A DNA stretch of 46,167 nucleotides from Myxosarcina sp. GA_180221_E-2-1-MAG-40_15 (GTDB taxonomy: Bacteria; Cyanobacteriota; Cyanobacteriia; Cyanobacteriales; Xenococcaceae). The stretch lies in NCBI GenBank assembly GCA_020692205.1, contig JAIMKV010000037.1, positions 1-46,167 of the forward strand, read 5' to 3'. Both the position numbers and the translations under genes were made by a program. The number at the start of each line of letters is the position of its first letter. Position 1 is the first letter of the stretch. Of this stretch, positions 2,626 through 24,872 are shown piece after piece. The notes below the pieces were generated by a model. The model saw only the letters and a program-made list of their open reading frames with translations. It was not told the DNA's origin and made no database searches.

Positions 2626-3186
2626 ATGAAAGAAAAGACAGAAAGAGAAAAAATGCTGAATAACGAGTTGTATTTAGCAACCGATCAAGAACTAACTAGG
2701 ATGCACTTTGGCGCACGTCGGCTACTTAATGATTTTAATTGTTCTCTGCCTGATGAACTAGATCGCCAAAAAAACATTGTTGCTAATTTATTTGGCAATA
2801 TTGGGGCAAATTTTACGGTTAGACCGCCTTTTTACTGCGACTACGGTTGTCATATCTTTGCTGGAAATAATTTATATATTAATTACGACTGCACGATTCT
2901 TGATTGCAATACTGTGCATTTGGGCAATGATGTTTTACTCGCACCCAAGGTGCAAATCTATACTGCATATCATCCTACAGATCCCAAATTGAGATTATCG
3001 GGTCAAGAACTAGCAGCACCAGTTAGCATCGGCGATAATGTTTGGCTTGGTGGTGGGGTAATTGTTTGTCCTGGCGTTCTGATCGGCTCGAATGTAACTA
3101 TTGGTGCGGGTAGTGTCGTAACTAAAGATATTCCTGATAATGTTATTGCTGTTGGTAATCCTTGCCAAGTGATCAAAAAGATTTAA
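2626..3186 (+). CDS. Sugar O-acetyltransferase, left-handed beta-helix (Maa/LacA type)
   Basis: A 186-aa acetyl-CoA-dependent O-acetyltransferase of the maltose/galactoside acetyltransferase group. The N-terminus has the helical Mac domain (REKMLNNELYLATDQEL). The rest is a hexapeptide-repeat left-handed beta helix with the catalytic His in 'IYTAYHPTD' and the closing 'GAGSVVTKDIPDNVIAVGNP' strand. I chose the ATG at 2626 over an upstream TTG at 2521: family members start with M-K-x-E-x-E-K-M-L, and the extra 35 residues would cover the 14-bp repeat. The acceptor sugar cannot be told from sequence. It stands alone on the plus strand. Confidence 0.85.
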   Translation: MKEKTEREKMLNNELYLATDQELTRMHFGARRLLNDFNCSLPDELDRQKNIVANLFGNIGANFTVRPPFYCDYGCHIFAGNNLYINYDCTILDCNTVHLGNDVLLAPKVQIYTAYHPTDPKLRLSGQELAAPVSIGDNVWLGGGVIVCPGVLIGSNVTIGAGSVVTKDIPDNVIAVGNPCQVIKKI

Positions 3187-3240
3187 TTTTACCCAGCATT
3201 TAACAATTAGAGTGAGTATTACCTACCTGGTTGTATCTAG

Positions 3241-3720
3241 TTAATTTTCAGCGATCGCTCCTTGTCCAGCAAGAGTATTTTCTAGCAACCTATAAGTAAC
3301 GCCTGCGAATACTGTGAATACTATTCCAGGAATACTTATACCTCCTCCGCTTTCTCCTGTGATCTGAGCAATTCTTATTTCGCCATTGTCGCCTGGAAGT
3401 GCTTTGACTCCATATTGATTGAGGTCATTTTGAACGAAAGGGAAACTTGCTGATTGTGAGTCAATATATGTCGTAAACGCTACTTGATTTTCTGACGCAA
3501 AAATTGATCGATAAAATTAAGGTCTACAGGAATGTAATCAACTCTAAAATCACTATTATCGATAATTGAGGAATTGAAAATAACAGATTGAATTGCTCCT
3601 TGATGATTACTAGTTAAAACTTCTATTTCTAATCCATAATTAGTATTTTCGTGGGTGAGGGGTAAAAGTAATAAATAAATCTGGATATGGGCTGGTTAGT
3701 TCAAGATTATTTGTTTCCAT
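3241..3720 (-). pseudogene. Broken gene with two frameshifts, unknown surface-type protein
   Basis: On the minus strand an ATG at 3720 opens a frame (METNNLELTSPYPDLFITF) that stops after 26 codons. Coding continues in a second frame (LTHENTNYGLEIEVLTSNHQ onward, with SVIFNSSIIDNSDFRVDYIP), then in a third (ASENQVAFTTYIDSQSASFP onward) to a TAA at 3241-3243. The three pieces read together give about 158 residues of even, beta-rich composition. The last part (GEIRIAQITGES, then IPGIVFTVFAGVTYRLL) vaguely recalls cohesin-like surface modules, but I do not assign a family. Either two real indels have inactivated the gene or the assembly has errors here. Confidence 0.6.
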
Positions 3721-3819
3721 GATGTTTAAATATCAGTAGTTAAAATAAGTCAAATTTAATAAGAGAATACAGCCGTATATTTATAGGCGACGTATACTTA
3801 TAAATTCGTTATTTCTGAT

Positions 3820-3865
3820 AATATTATCTGGCTGTTTAAGAAATATTAAACAGCCAGATAATATT
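3820..3865. repeat. 20-bp perfect inverted repeat (hairpin)
   Basis: AATATTATCTGGCTGTTTAA (3820-3839) and its exact reverse complement (3846-3865) are separated by only 6 nt (GAAATA). A weaker outer arm (TTATTTCT at 3809-3816, AGAAATAA at 3881-3888) extends the symmetry. It lies between the divergently oriented broken gene and rsmD, so neither neighbour needs a terminator there. It may be a dispersed palindromic element or the terminator of a lost gene. Confidence 0.8.
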
Positions 3866-4135
3866 TCTAATCTTTATGGCAGAAATAATTTTCTTTATCT
3901 TGAATTTATATTTTGTTTTAAATGGATTGAAATCACAAGATAACGTAACGATGATCGCAGTAATGATGAGATTGAATACAGGGAAAAATTTGCTCGATTA
4001 TGATAACCAACAATAACAATAGCTGATAAAACTATGTACTAAATATTCTCGGTTCGTACTGCCTAAAAGAAGCCTTATTTAATATTTGGCTTGAATATTT
4101 GGCGCGATCGCCCAGCAATTTATTATGATTAAAGT
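3866..4135. other. Intergenic DNA upstream of rsmD
   Basis: About 270 bp, AT-rich, with one 46-codon ATG frame (3876-4016) that has no ribosome binding site and no recognisable product. A HIP1 site lies about 30 bp before the rsmD start. No further structure is evident. Confidence 0.35.
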
Positions 4136-21928: not shown

Positions 21929-22792
21929 ATGTGGACAGAAATTGCTCAAGCCATAAGCCAGGCGACAGGCGAAAAATTTGCGATCGCCAAGAAAAAATCT
22001 GTCAGTGGTGGCTGTATTAATCAAGGTTATCGAGTCAGTGGTGATAATGCAGAATACTTCGTCAAGCTGAATGATGCTTCTCAGGTCGAGATGTTTGCAG
22101 CTGAAGCTTTGGGACTAAAGCAAATGTACGCTACACAGACAATTACTGTCCCTCAACCGATCTGTTGTGGAACAGCAGCTAATTCTAGTTATATCGTGCT
22201 GCAATGGCTGAATTTAGGAGGCGGTAACAGCCAAAGCTACCAAGAAATGGGTCGTCAGTTAGCCGCAATGCACCGTAAGGGGATAAGTCAACGCTTTGGT
22301 TGGCAACGCAACAACACCATCGGTTCTACGCCTCAGATCAATACCTGGACAGATAGCTGGGCAGATTTTTTTGCCGAACATCGTATCGGTTATCAGTTAA
22401 AACTAGCTAAACGTCGCGGAGGAAATTTTCTGGATCCAAATCAAGTAGTTAATGCAGTCAGAAATAAACTAGCAGATAGACAACCTGAAGCCTCTTTAGT
22501 CCATGGCGATTTATGGTCGGGTAATGCTGCGATCGCAACTGATGGTTCACCTGTGATCTTAGATCCTGCTACTTATAATGGCGATCGCGAAACTGATGTG
22601 GCCATGACCGAACTATTCGGCGGTTTTCCGCCTGCTTTCTATCATGGCTATAACGCAGCCTGGCAACTGGACAGCGGTTATCAACTGCGTAAGAGTATTT
22701 ATAATCTTTATCACGTCTTAAATCACTTCAATCTCTTTGGTGGAGGATACGCTAATCAAGCTAAAAGAATAATTGGGCAGATAATTTCTTGA
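21929..22792 (+). CDS. Fructosamine kinase family protein (ketosamine-3-kinase like)
   Basis: A 287-aa small-molecule kinase of the fructosamine-3-kinase family, which phosphorylates sugar adducts on protein amines so that they fall off (deglycation). The N-lobe shows 'KSVSGGCINQGYRVSG' and 'YFVKLND'. The catalytic loop is 'LVHGDLWSGNAAI' (near residue 193), and the metal-binding segment is 'VILDPATYNGDRETDVAMTE', followed by 'GGFPPAFYHGYNAAW' and 'YNLYHVLNHFNLFGGGY', all family hallmarks. It stands alone between minus-strand genes. Confidence 0.9.
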   Translation: MWTEIAQAISQATGEKFAIAKKKSVSGGCINQGYRVSGDNAEYFVKLNDASQVEMFAAEALGLKQMYATQTITVPQPICCGTAANSSYIVLQWLNLGGGNSQSYQEMGRQLAAMHRKGISQRFGWQRNNTIGSTPQINTWTDSWADFFAEHRIGYQLKLAKRRGGNFLDPNQVVNAVRNKLADRQPEASLVHGDLWSGNAAIATDGSPVILDPATYNGDRETDVAMTELFGGFPPAFYHGYNAAWQLDSGYQLRKSIYNLYHVLNHFNLFGGGYANQAKRIIGQIIS

Positions 22793-22914: not shown

Positions 22915-22940
22915 CGCGCAAAGACGCTGAGACGCAAAGG
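22915..22940 (+). repeat. Left arm of 26-bp inverted repeat framing the GxxExxY gene
   Basis: CGCGCAAAGACGCTGAGACG plus CAAAGG. It matches the reverse complement of the right arm (23373-23398) at 23 of 26 positions. Each arm is built of short CGCwAAGA-type units, and the arm lies 3 bp beyond the stop codon of the nuclease gene. Confidence 0.85.
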
Positions 22941-22942
22941 AG

Positions 22943-23320
22943 TTAAAGATTATTTACCAGGCGAGTAATACCGTTCTTAATGAGATCGGTATTAAAGTTG
23001 ATTAGTAAACCTAGGTGTTTGTTGGTGAGGCGTAGATAAGTCAACAGTTGTTTTTTATGAACGGGAGCGATAACTTCCACAGACTTTAATTCAATAATCA
23101 CCATATTCTCGACAATAAAATCTGCTCTAAAGCCTTCCCCTAAGTGTATCCCTTCATAAACCACCAAAATAGGCTTTTGTCTCTCAAACCTTAGCCCACG
23201 CTTCTGCAACTCATAAGCCATAACCGCTTCATAAACAGACTCCAACAAACCCGCACCCAATTTAGTATGAATCTTAAATGCAGCATCCACAATCTCTTTG
23301 CTTATCTCATTCTCTTTCAC
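22943..23320 (-). CDS. GxxExxY protein (PD-(D/E)XK nuclease fold)
   Basis: A 125-aa protein of the GxxExxY family, named for the motif seen here as 'LGAGLLESVYEAVM' (residues 17-30). The nuclease-fold core follows: 'EGFRADFIVENMVIIELKSV', with the Asp and the E-x-K of a PD-(D/E)XK site, and a closing 'LLTYLRLTNKHLGLLINFNT'. The family's biochemical role is not established. Start codon GTG at 23320. The gene fills nearly the whole space between two inverted 26-bp repeats, so I infer a small mobile cassette. I see no target-site duplication that I would defend. Confidence 0.88.
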   Translation of the reverse strand: MKENEISKEIVDAAFKIHTKLGAGLLESVYEAVMAYELQKRGLRFERQKPILVVYEGIHLGEGFRADFIVENMVIIELKSVEVIAPVHKKQLLTYLRLTNKHLGLLINFNTDLIKNGITRLVNNL

Positions 23321-23372
23321 CGATAACCCCTTTGCTTTCTTTCCTTTAATCTCAAAAACTAAACAAATAAAT

Positions 23373-23398
23373 CCTTAGCGTCTTAGCGTCTTAGCGCG
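23373..23398 (-). repeat. Right arm of 26-bp inverted repeat framing the GxxExxY gene
   Basis: On the plus strand this reads CCTTAGCGTCTTAGCGTCTT plus AGCGCG. Its reverse complement aligns to the left arm with mismatches only at positions 6, 15 and 22. The arm lies 52 bp upstream of the GxxExxY start codon. It shows three tandem TTAGCGTC-like units. Confidence 0.85.
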
Positions 23399-23453: not shown

Positions 23454-24872
23454 CTAAGCAGCAACCAATTCCTTCTCAGTCTTAGATAACTCATTCAACA
23501 ACGCGCTAACATTTTGCTTCGCATCGCCGTAAAGCATTTGATTATTATCCATATAAAACAAAGGATTATCTACCCCTGCATAACCAATACCCAGACTGCG
23601 CTTCATTACCACCACATTTTGAGCTTTCCAAACTTCCATTACTGGCATACCTGCAATGGGGCTAGAAGGATCGTCTAGTGCGCTGGGGTTAACAGTATCA
23701 TTGGCACCAATTACTAACACCACATCAGTATTAGACAAATCATCGTTGATCTCATCCATTTCTAACACGATATCGTAAGGTACATTCGCCTCTGCTAACA
23801 GTACGTTCATGTGTCCCGGCATTCTTCCAGCTACTGGGTGGATGCCAAAACGCACTTCTTTACCTTGCTGGCGAAGAATTTTAGTAATGTCGGAAACGGA
23901 ATGCTGTGCTTGAGCTACCGCCATACCGTAACCAGGTACGATAACCACGCTTTTCGCATCGTTAAGTAATTCTGCTACTTCTTCAACGTTCGTTGCAGTA
24001 GCTTCGCCCATTGGTTTAGCTTCACCAGCAGGTGCAGCACCACTACTACCTTCACCAAAACCGCCCAAGATAACGCTAATAAAGGAACGGTTCATGGCTT
24101 CACACATAATGTAGCTAAGAATTGCTCCACTGCTACCAACTAATGCACCAGTAACGATCAGTACGTCATTGGAAAGCATAAAACCAGCAGCAGCAGCAGC
24201 CCAACCTGAGTAGCTATTAAGCATGGAGATAACCACAGGCATATCTGCGCCACCGATACCCATGACTAGCAGAAAACCTAGTACACAAGCCAATCCAGTC
24301 ATAATTAACAGAGGCTGCAAGCCGTCGGCTGTTCCCATAAACTGTACGCCCAGAACTACCGAACCAATTAGTAATGAGACGTTGATTAAATGACGAGCAG
24401 GCAACATTAGGGGTTTGCTACCAAAAGAACCATTTAATTTGCCAAAAGCTACTACAGAACCAGCAAAGGTAACAGCACCAATGAAGATACCAATATAGAT
24501 TTCTAGTTCGTGGATAGTGGCTTCAACCCCAGTTAGAGTGTTTTCAGGCTGTAAGTAAGTAGCTAAACCAACCAGTACCGCAGCTAAACCAACAAAACTA
24601 TGCAGAATCGCTACAAGTTCGGGCATGGAAGTCATCGCGACTCTAGCAGCGAGAATTGAGCCAATGATCGCCCCAGGAACGATCGCCGCAATCAAAACTC
24701 CGTAACCGTTTACCTGGGCGCTAAGGGCAGTGGCAACAAAGGCGATCGCCATACCAATGATCCCAAACAAGTTACCCCGACGAGCTGTTTCCTGGTTGGA
24801 TAATCCCCCCAGGCTGAGGATAAATAAGGCGCTGGCTGCAATATAAGCAACCGCCACAAGATTATTAGACAT
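23454..24872 (-). CDS. pntB: PntB, proton-translocating NAD(P) transhydrogenase beta subunit
   Basis: A 472-aa subunit of the transhydrogenase that uses the proton gradient to drive NADPH formation from NADH and NADP+, located in cyanobacteria in the thylakoid or plasma membrane. The first 270 residues hold about nine membrane helices (domain II, for example '[20 protein letters not shown]'). The C-terminal domain III binds NADP(H): '[20 protein letters not shown]', '[20 protein letters not shown]', '[16 protein letters not shown]' and the final '[14 protein letters not shown]'. It lies 92 bp after pntA in one unit. A T-run on the minus strand past the stop (23402-23409) may help termination. 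Confidence 0.95.

Follow-up and report, generated by a model that had tools for sequence, protein, structure and literature searches.

The DNA considered here, termed the window, is a stretch of 46,167 nucleotides from a Myxosarcina genome, in which a 484-bp segment is located between a fructosamine kinase gene (positions 21929-22792, forward strand; PF03881, 398 bits) and pntB, the gene for NAD(P) transhydrogenase subunit beta (23454-24872, reverse strand; NF006974, 712 bits), both of which stand outside it. The segment is bounded by two inverted arms, each constructed of three 8-bp units of the form CRCNNAG that point at the enclosed gene. The left arm (22915-22940, forward strand), which matches the arm pattern with 0 mismatches, consists of CGCAAAGA-CGCTGAGA-CGCAAAGG, and the right arm (23373-23398, reverse strand), adjoining the region downstream of pntB, consists of CGCTAAGA-CGCTAAGA-CGCTAAGG. 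Between them lies one GxxExxY gene of 125 codons on the reverse strand (22943-23320), the stop codon of which is 2 bp from the left arm and the GTG start of which is 52 bp from the right arm; the latter gap is occupied by a leader (23321-23372, no strand assigned), delimited from alignments and by reading the related loci L192 and L195 by eye. The arms agree as inverted repeats at 23 of 26 positions, whereas 500 dinucleotide shuffles of the flanks averaged 16.4 and never exceeded 20; this confirms the arm pair, and its tandem CGCwAAGA-like units, proposed in an initial annotation. Since the longest exact run common to both arms is only 8 bases, an exact-repeat search with a seed of 9 was blank there. 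The list of open reading frames contains no second gene-sized frame between the arms and hence no transposase, as that annotation had stated, and the element accordingly lacks the transposase of its own by which insertion sequences and transposons are recognised. The host genome (4.87 Mb in 131 contigs) harbors one GxxExxY gene and ten arm-like sites at no more than three mismatches, versus 0 for the reversed control, so that eight arms are found away from the gene.

The encoded protein falls within the GxxExxY family by a match above the curated cut-off along the whole of TIGR04256 (152 bits, cut-off 35; profile positions 1-116 of 116), and PF13366 (PDDEXK_3; 147 bits, cut-off 22) was the sole profile to pass its cut-off in that search. 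Residues D67, E77, K79, Q91 and Y95, which we take to be the D, ExK and QxxxY motif positions, are unchanged in the aligned columns of 15 diverse members. The AlphaFold2 model (pLDDT 95) found as its top Foldseek neighbour 4ic1 (SSO0001), presumably a Cas4, at a modest level (E 1e-3, TM by query 0.49-0.61), followed by lambda/LHK exonucleases; weak matches to Cas4- and CRISPR-type profiles are in line with such a fold, the Cas4 profile reaching 14 bits, below its cut-off of 22.7. From its residues and modelled fold, the protein is predicted to be a PD-(D/E)XK nuclease with an alpha-beta core like that of Cas4 and lambda exonuclease, sharing with them the invariant D, ExK and QxxxY positions. 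It differs from these enzymes in being shorter (125 aa) and in giving no match in a PDB sequence search, and its two immediate neighbours, fructosamine kinase and pntB, include no CRISPR or recombination gene; a Cas4 of CRISPR adaptation would be expected beside cas1/cas2. The gene is under purifying selection, with dN/dS of 0.04-0.18 in 11 of 12 GxxExxY pairs, the twelfth (L052/L050) being out of frame and excluded. None of 50,697 phage records matched the protein at E 1e-5, and a phage origin of the cassette was set aside; matches were present in 8 of 72,556 plasmid records. In the literature searched, namely the open-licence articles of PubMed Central, neither a function for GxxExxY proteins nor any work pairing the gene with flanking arms turned up.

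Arms were next sought wherever the family occurs. Among 291 cyanobacterial genomes, 66 contain TIGR04256, with 105 matches and at most five per genome; 90 of these were read, 15 weak or fragmentary ones being omitted, and 89 were scored, the flanks of L087 being short. Scoring relied on a de novo inverted-repeat search in 350-bp flanks at a score of at least 14, with shifted intervals of the same loci as controls. Inverted arms were detected at 67 of the 89 loci versus 3 of 509 controls, and when flank homology was used to merge the loci into 37 sites, arms were present at 24 of the 27 that remain with armless clades set aside. A genome scan extended the sample to the best 80 of 572 relatives, including Bacteroidetes, Acidobacteria, Planctomycetes, Chloroflexi, Verrucomicrobia, Desulfobacteraceae and two archaeal records. 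Of these best 80, 78 were scored (L256 and L289 unscored), and arms occurred at 55 of the 78 versus 5 of 464 controls with four cyanobacterial loci included, or at 52 of 74 versus 6 of 440 outside the cyanobacteria; one archaeal record (L287) has arms and the other (L288) has none.

The orientation of the units is equally regular. When at least two CRCNNAG units were required on each side within 200 bp of the gene, inward-pointing units were found on both sides at 45 of 48 loci of the A clade of the protein, compared with 0 of 45 farther out, 0 of 48 for outward units and 0 of 39 in the other cyanobacterial clades. For the non-cyanobacterial loci among the best 80 of 572, the corresponding figures are 45 of 74 inward, 13 of 74 outward and 3 of 58 farther out. 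The reversed motif overlaps with the tandem; it reached two or more on both sides at 10 of 48 A-clade and 5 of 74 non-cyanobacterial loci. The units vary regularly about C-R-C-N-N-A-G, with a spacing of chiefly 8 (222 cases) or 9 bp (131 cases). Arms are a general feature of the GxxExxY gene, and the window pair is a typical case of a widespread pattern. The supposition that the repeats always flank the gene at a fixed distance holds in part: arms accompany most of the arm-bearing clade, and the arm-to-gene distance varies among the cyanobacterial loci. A chance origin of the window repeats is ruled out by the shuffles and the shifted-interval controls, and a peculiarity of a single genome by the arms at many cyanobacterial and non-cyanobacterial loci.

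An arm runs to about three units, each 8-10 bp long and repeated in tandem, and three kinds of unit were distinguished, namely CRCNNAG (8-9 bp), GCAGAT (10 bp) and an AATC type (9-10 bp). In a tree of 89 proteins, from which L102 was left out, all 45 loci typed as CRCNNAG are inside one clade of 49, the remaining four being untyped, and GCAGAT arms form a clade of three. The AATC type occupies a clade of 24, with 17 typed, six untyped and one typed as GCAGAT; this last row was typed by regular expression, and its inverted repeat reads AATC units. The domain persists without arms in two divergent clades, of 12 rows together, and in a lone row on a long branch. Arm type requires 12 changes on the tree, versus 38.6 with shuffled labels, and as few changes were reached in 0 of 200 shuffles. 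Moreover, three genomes (G283, G198 and G097) each hold copies that differ in arm type, which excludes host composition as the cause. Within the CRCNNAG arms, arm distance also follows protein distance (Mantel rho 0.21 over 63 loci, 0 of 2000 permutations as high; 26 same-site loci were removed and a few pairs sharing one flank retained). Unit type tracks protein clade, not host. This co-divergence makes it likely that the protein recognises its own flanking arms, as the initial annotation had surmised.

The window's own site was compared in the region downstream of pntB, taken as the anchor, in 13 genomes of the genus. The gene is present in six of them (G000, which is the window's genome, G377, G372, G367, G375 and G366, in the last of which it is interrupted by a contig end). 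G370 retains a 19-aa gene remnant and an arm, G373 and G368 carry an arm and no gene within the 754 and 1156 bp read, respectively, and G371, G369, G376 and G374 possess neither gene nor arm. In G384, a relative at the level of the family, a gene-less arm hairpin with arms below the scan length was recognised by eye at the same place. The site is polymorphic within the genus, and gene-less orthologous loci, for which the initial annotation had advised a search, do exist in close relatives, at this site and elsewhere. In G377, G372, G367 and G375, an extra gene that the window does not have lies between the cassette and a further arm facing the same way, the product in G367 carrying a phosphopantetheine-attachment domain; in G372, the cassette's own arm on that side is reduced. 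Leader-like stretches were seen by eye inside both same-facing arms in relatives with the extra gene (L192 and L195). In L195, this gene (3099-3878, forward strand) belongs to PF00550, the phosphopantetheine-attachment domain, and adjoins the cassette as a possible passenger; L192, L194 and L220 likewise have a gene between same-facing arms beside the cassette.

One shared intergenic site, designated family f6, lies between a gene that by its look we take to encode a methionine-gamma-lyase and an FrhB-domain gene. The cassette sits there in either orientation, with collinear flanks and breakpoints at or near the arms. The site was searched for in 89 genomes and read in 88 (G295 was left out). 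Among the 48 genomes with both neighbour genes, the cassette is forward in 18, reversed in seven and without its gene in 23. In nine of the 23 gene-less sites the gap is just 13-32 bp long, and arm remnants can be made out by eye in at least four (L118, L130, L141 and L171); L141 is a perfect arm hairpin of 14 bp whose loop is 6 nt. Contrasts occur within a genus, G335 having the cassette that G292 and G365 lack, and G116 having the cassette of which G352 keeps a remnant. At three loci (L159, L129 and L163), the arms are broken by, or enclose, what looks like a further dispersed repeat with the core CAGTGCGTTG.

The identities of flanks and gene at this site are weakly coupled (Spearman 0.21, 276 pairs; for this and the orientation analysis the decayed L120, L121 and L124 were left out, and L036, L045 and the window added). 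L132 and L140 agree in both (flanks 94.1%, gene 92.9%). By contrast, L145 and L142, which are oppositely oriented, have flanks 93.3% and genes 70.4% identical; the values are 92.4% and 68.7% for L036 and L104, of one genus and again opposite in orientation, and 91.7% and 63.8% for L116 and L114, also of one genus. Closely similar flanks around distant genes indicate that the cassette alone was replaced. Orientation requires three changes on the best tree, and well-supported branches force only one. Presence and absence, two orientations, replacement at fixed sites and gene-less arm hairpins are all observed. The proposal of a mobile cassette is thus upheld as far as occupied, empty and remnant states at orthologous sites go, the window's included; no target duplication was definable at the junctions read, base-level resolution was obtained for no insertion into a wholly new site, nor was an insertion of precisely 484 bp resolved. 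What the data show most directly is a cassette that is replaced, inverted or lost at fixed sites, not one that transposes to new ones. Since several sites are common to many genera, long stable inheritance of the cassette also occurs. One such site, common to 11 loci from 10 genera, is bordered by a NOV_C-domain gene (L016, 28-1350), the domain being demonstrated for L016 and the other ten loci sharing homologous flanks. Within its coding region, the L016 gene also has two inward-facing arms, at 368 and 482, with no GxxExxY gene between them, and a similar pair occurs in L369.

Arms are further dispersed without the gene. A CAC-type arm pattern is matched in 33 of the 291 cyanobacterial genomes, with up to 265 copies, versus 0 for the reversed control. 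A GxxExxY gene is present in 25 of these 33 genomes versus 41 of the 258 others (p = 4e-12, a figure that ignores host relatedness). With more than two arms per gene required, the counts are 24 of 32 versus 42 of 259, and for A-clade genes at the loci read 23 of 33 versus 13 of 258, both again ignoring host relatedness. A CGC-type pattern gave 18 of 21 versus 48 of 270 and likewise ignores relatedness; this is a weak test, because many of its matches may be the genes' own arms and its reversed control matches common variants, and the CAC-type pattern, with its control at 0 throughout, is the better one. The initial annotation had held that arms scattered without any link to the gene would count against a cassette; eight of the ten arms in the window's genome are indeed solitary and up to 265 occur elsewhere, but the gene is enriched where arms are found. 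Given this strong enrichment, the solitary arms are read as gene-less derivatives, in the manner of REPs and RAYTs. The exceptions are G190, with 265 CAC-type arms and a sole GxxExxY copy (L090) of an armless clade, G214, with 274 CGC-type matches and a sole copy (L102) that is broken and has GCAGAT arms, and the eight of 33 arm-bearing genomes without any GxxExxY gene, among them G005, G039 and G266 with 34-47 arms each.

Thirty arm places, among the first listed in G005 and G190, were read, four pairs being read from both arms. Sixteen belong to inward pairs, three to outward pairs and 11 are single, compared with 5 of 390 control windows that hold an arm at all; the 16 inward-paired places amount to 12 distinct pairs, and the loop is 6 nt at 10 of the 16. 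Four hairpins of G190 (L346, L356, L372 and L374) show recurring outer ends, AGGGTTTTA-like on one side and TGAAATTTCAGGTTA-like on the other, as if they formed a multi-copy mini-element with fixed boundaries. In the window's genome, six of the eight solitary arms are embedded in one or the other of two further families of small repeats with ends of their own, so part of the dispersal is hitch-hiking, and self-mobile arms are unsupported in this genome. The first family, about 110-120 bp long with ends like TATAGCNRTCGAA, embeds an arm at L006 (right half of the repeat only), L007 and L011, as well as at L341 and L344 of G367; the second, with ends like GAAGTYCGYTT, carries an arm at L005, L008 and L010. 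The L011 copy lies within coding sequence, its arm being in the variable linker of a gene that we take by its look to be PP2C-like; the stretch is 111 nt longer than in G372, and the ends of the insert could not be fixed from the alignment with G372.

On this evidence, the 484-bp segment is read, with a probability of roughly 65%, as a selfish, homing-like cassette, in which a nuclease resembling Cas4 and lambda exonuclease is placed between inverted copies of its predicted recognition site. The protein would bind the tandem units, possibly with several subunits per arm, and would cut or process arm DNA. Repair from a cassette copy bearing the arms could then copy the gene into the cut site in a homing-like manner. 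A fused arm pair is nearly symmetric and might receive the cassette either way round, which would account for its being seen in both orientations. Where the gene is lost, arm hairpins would stay behind; these could act as landing pads or be spread in trans like REPINs. More generally, the observations suggest that GxxExxY cassettes are small selfish DNA elements of a type so far unrecognised, which also leave gene-less hairpin repeats around genomes. The modest level of the best fold match, the armless clades, the stable sites common to many genera and the want of an intact matching gene in the most arm-rich genomes weigh against this reading, and the cassette could also be flipped by arm-to-arm recombination in which the nuclease has no part.

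The best-surviving alternative, which we nonetheless regard as improbable, takes the arms for common repeats of the host, mobilised by an unrelated transposase or some other element, and the nuclease gene for a passenger that chanced to lie between two copies. It would account for the six of eight solitary arms lodged in other repeat families, for the arm-bearing genomes without the gene and for G190 and G214, the most arm-rich genomes, which have no intact matching copy. Against it stand the tracking of protein clade by arm type, across hosts and inside one genome alike, and the presence of the same CRCNNAG units beside the gene in further bacterial phyla and one of the two archaeal records. 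A slightly poorer prospect is that the gene is a host-useful nuclease of repair or defence, the arms serving as an operator or as favoured recombination sites and the flips arising by homologous recombination. Purifying selection, sites common to many genera, one of them beside the NOV_C-domain gene, and the weak CRISPR/Cas4-type profile matches would suit such a role, whereas selfish spread fits better with the patchy presence in 66 of 291 genomes, the replacement by distant cassettes at the f6 site, and the decay to remnants together with dispersed gene-less hairpins. The very unlikely proposal that the arms act in RNA, as a long transcript hairpin protecting or processing mRNA or as a terminator, could draw on the pairing of the arms when the segment is folded as single-stranded DNA (z = -3.7) and on their maintained complementarity, but was set aside because paired-arm differences on the sense strand show no wobble asymmetry (107 G-U-compatible versus 121 A-C, p = 0.39), no Rfam family matched, and a stem does not need repeated units.

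If the reading as a selfish cassette is true, the widespread GxxExxY proteins, which the present results tie to a short repeat recurrent in many genomes, and that repeat itself would come under one mechanism, that of a nuclease paired with tandem-unit arms of its own. This would account for a class of short intergenic repeats, supply a RAYT/REPIN-like system whose nuclease is unrelated, and let a protein-to-repeat code be read off natural co-variation. A broader and more tentative reading, to which we give somewhat less than even odds as a whole, would make TIGR04256 the enzymes of an unrecognised class of minute selfish elements in bacteria and some archaea, in which a Cas4-like nuclease reads tandem-unit arms, the cassette homes into arm-bearing sites either way round, gene-less hairpins are driven to hundreds of copies, and IVP four-helix genes between inverted 7-bp arrays represent a parallel second class.

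Several known systems offer comparison. In RAYT/TnpA-REP systems, as described in PMC3116915 and PMC8266576, a small nuclease-type gene is associated with a dispersed short repeat, which also occurs as gene-less inverted doublets forming hairpins, and enzyme groups and repeats co-evolve. GxxExxY cassettes are similar in that the gene is tied to a dispersed repeat that also forms gene-less hairpins, G190 and G214 being exceptions. They differ in the enzyme, since RAYTs are HuH transposases and the GxxExxY protein is a predicted PD-(D/E)XK nuclease, in arms composed of 8-10 bp tandem units and set in inverted pairs, and in the turnover of the gene, either way round, at fixed sites. PF13366 alone passes its cut-off and the fold neighbours are PD-(D/E)XK proteins, not HuH tyrosine transposases; the enzymes being unrelated, the cassettes are not placed among RAYTs, and the likeness in layout and dynamics stands. 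By analogy, the best reading is that they work like RAYT/REPIN with an unrelated enzyme. As to enzyme-less elements with short inverted repeats in many copies, the gene-less arm hairpins fit the MITE description, whereas the window element carries a gene.

Homing endonuclease genes cut the empty allele at a defined site and are copied in by repair. The free-standing ones (cf. PMC10448857) share with the present cassette a small nuclease gene and an exchange limited to the cassette at a fixed site; here, however, the arms are part of the cassette and also occur dispersed, orientation varies and a cut site in the empty allele is not defined. The S23/IVP intervening sequences of 23S rRNA are selfish elements of about 0.4 kb with one small ORF, according to PMC4990558. 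The GxxExxY cassette is likewise about 0.4 kb with one small ORF, but has another protein, resides outside rRNA and shows no sign of RNA-level constraint. Elsewhere in genomes, IVP loci have the same architecture with a different protein: in a sample of 30 scored loci, part of all IVP matches (L012 at C48:22681-22989 in the window's own genome, and L301-L329), inverted arrays of mainly 7-bp tandem units enclose the IVP/S23 four-helix-bundle gene (PF05635) at 18 of 30 loci versus 2 of 174 controls.
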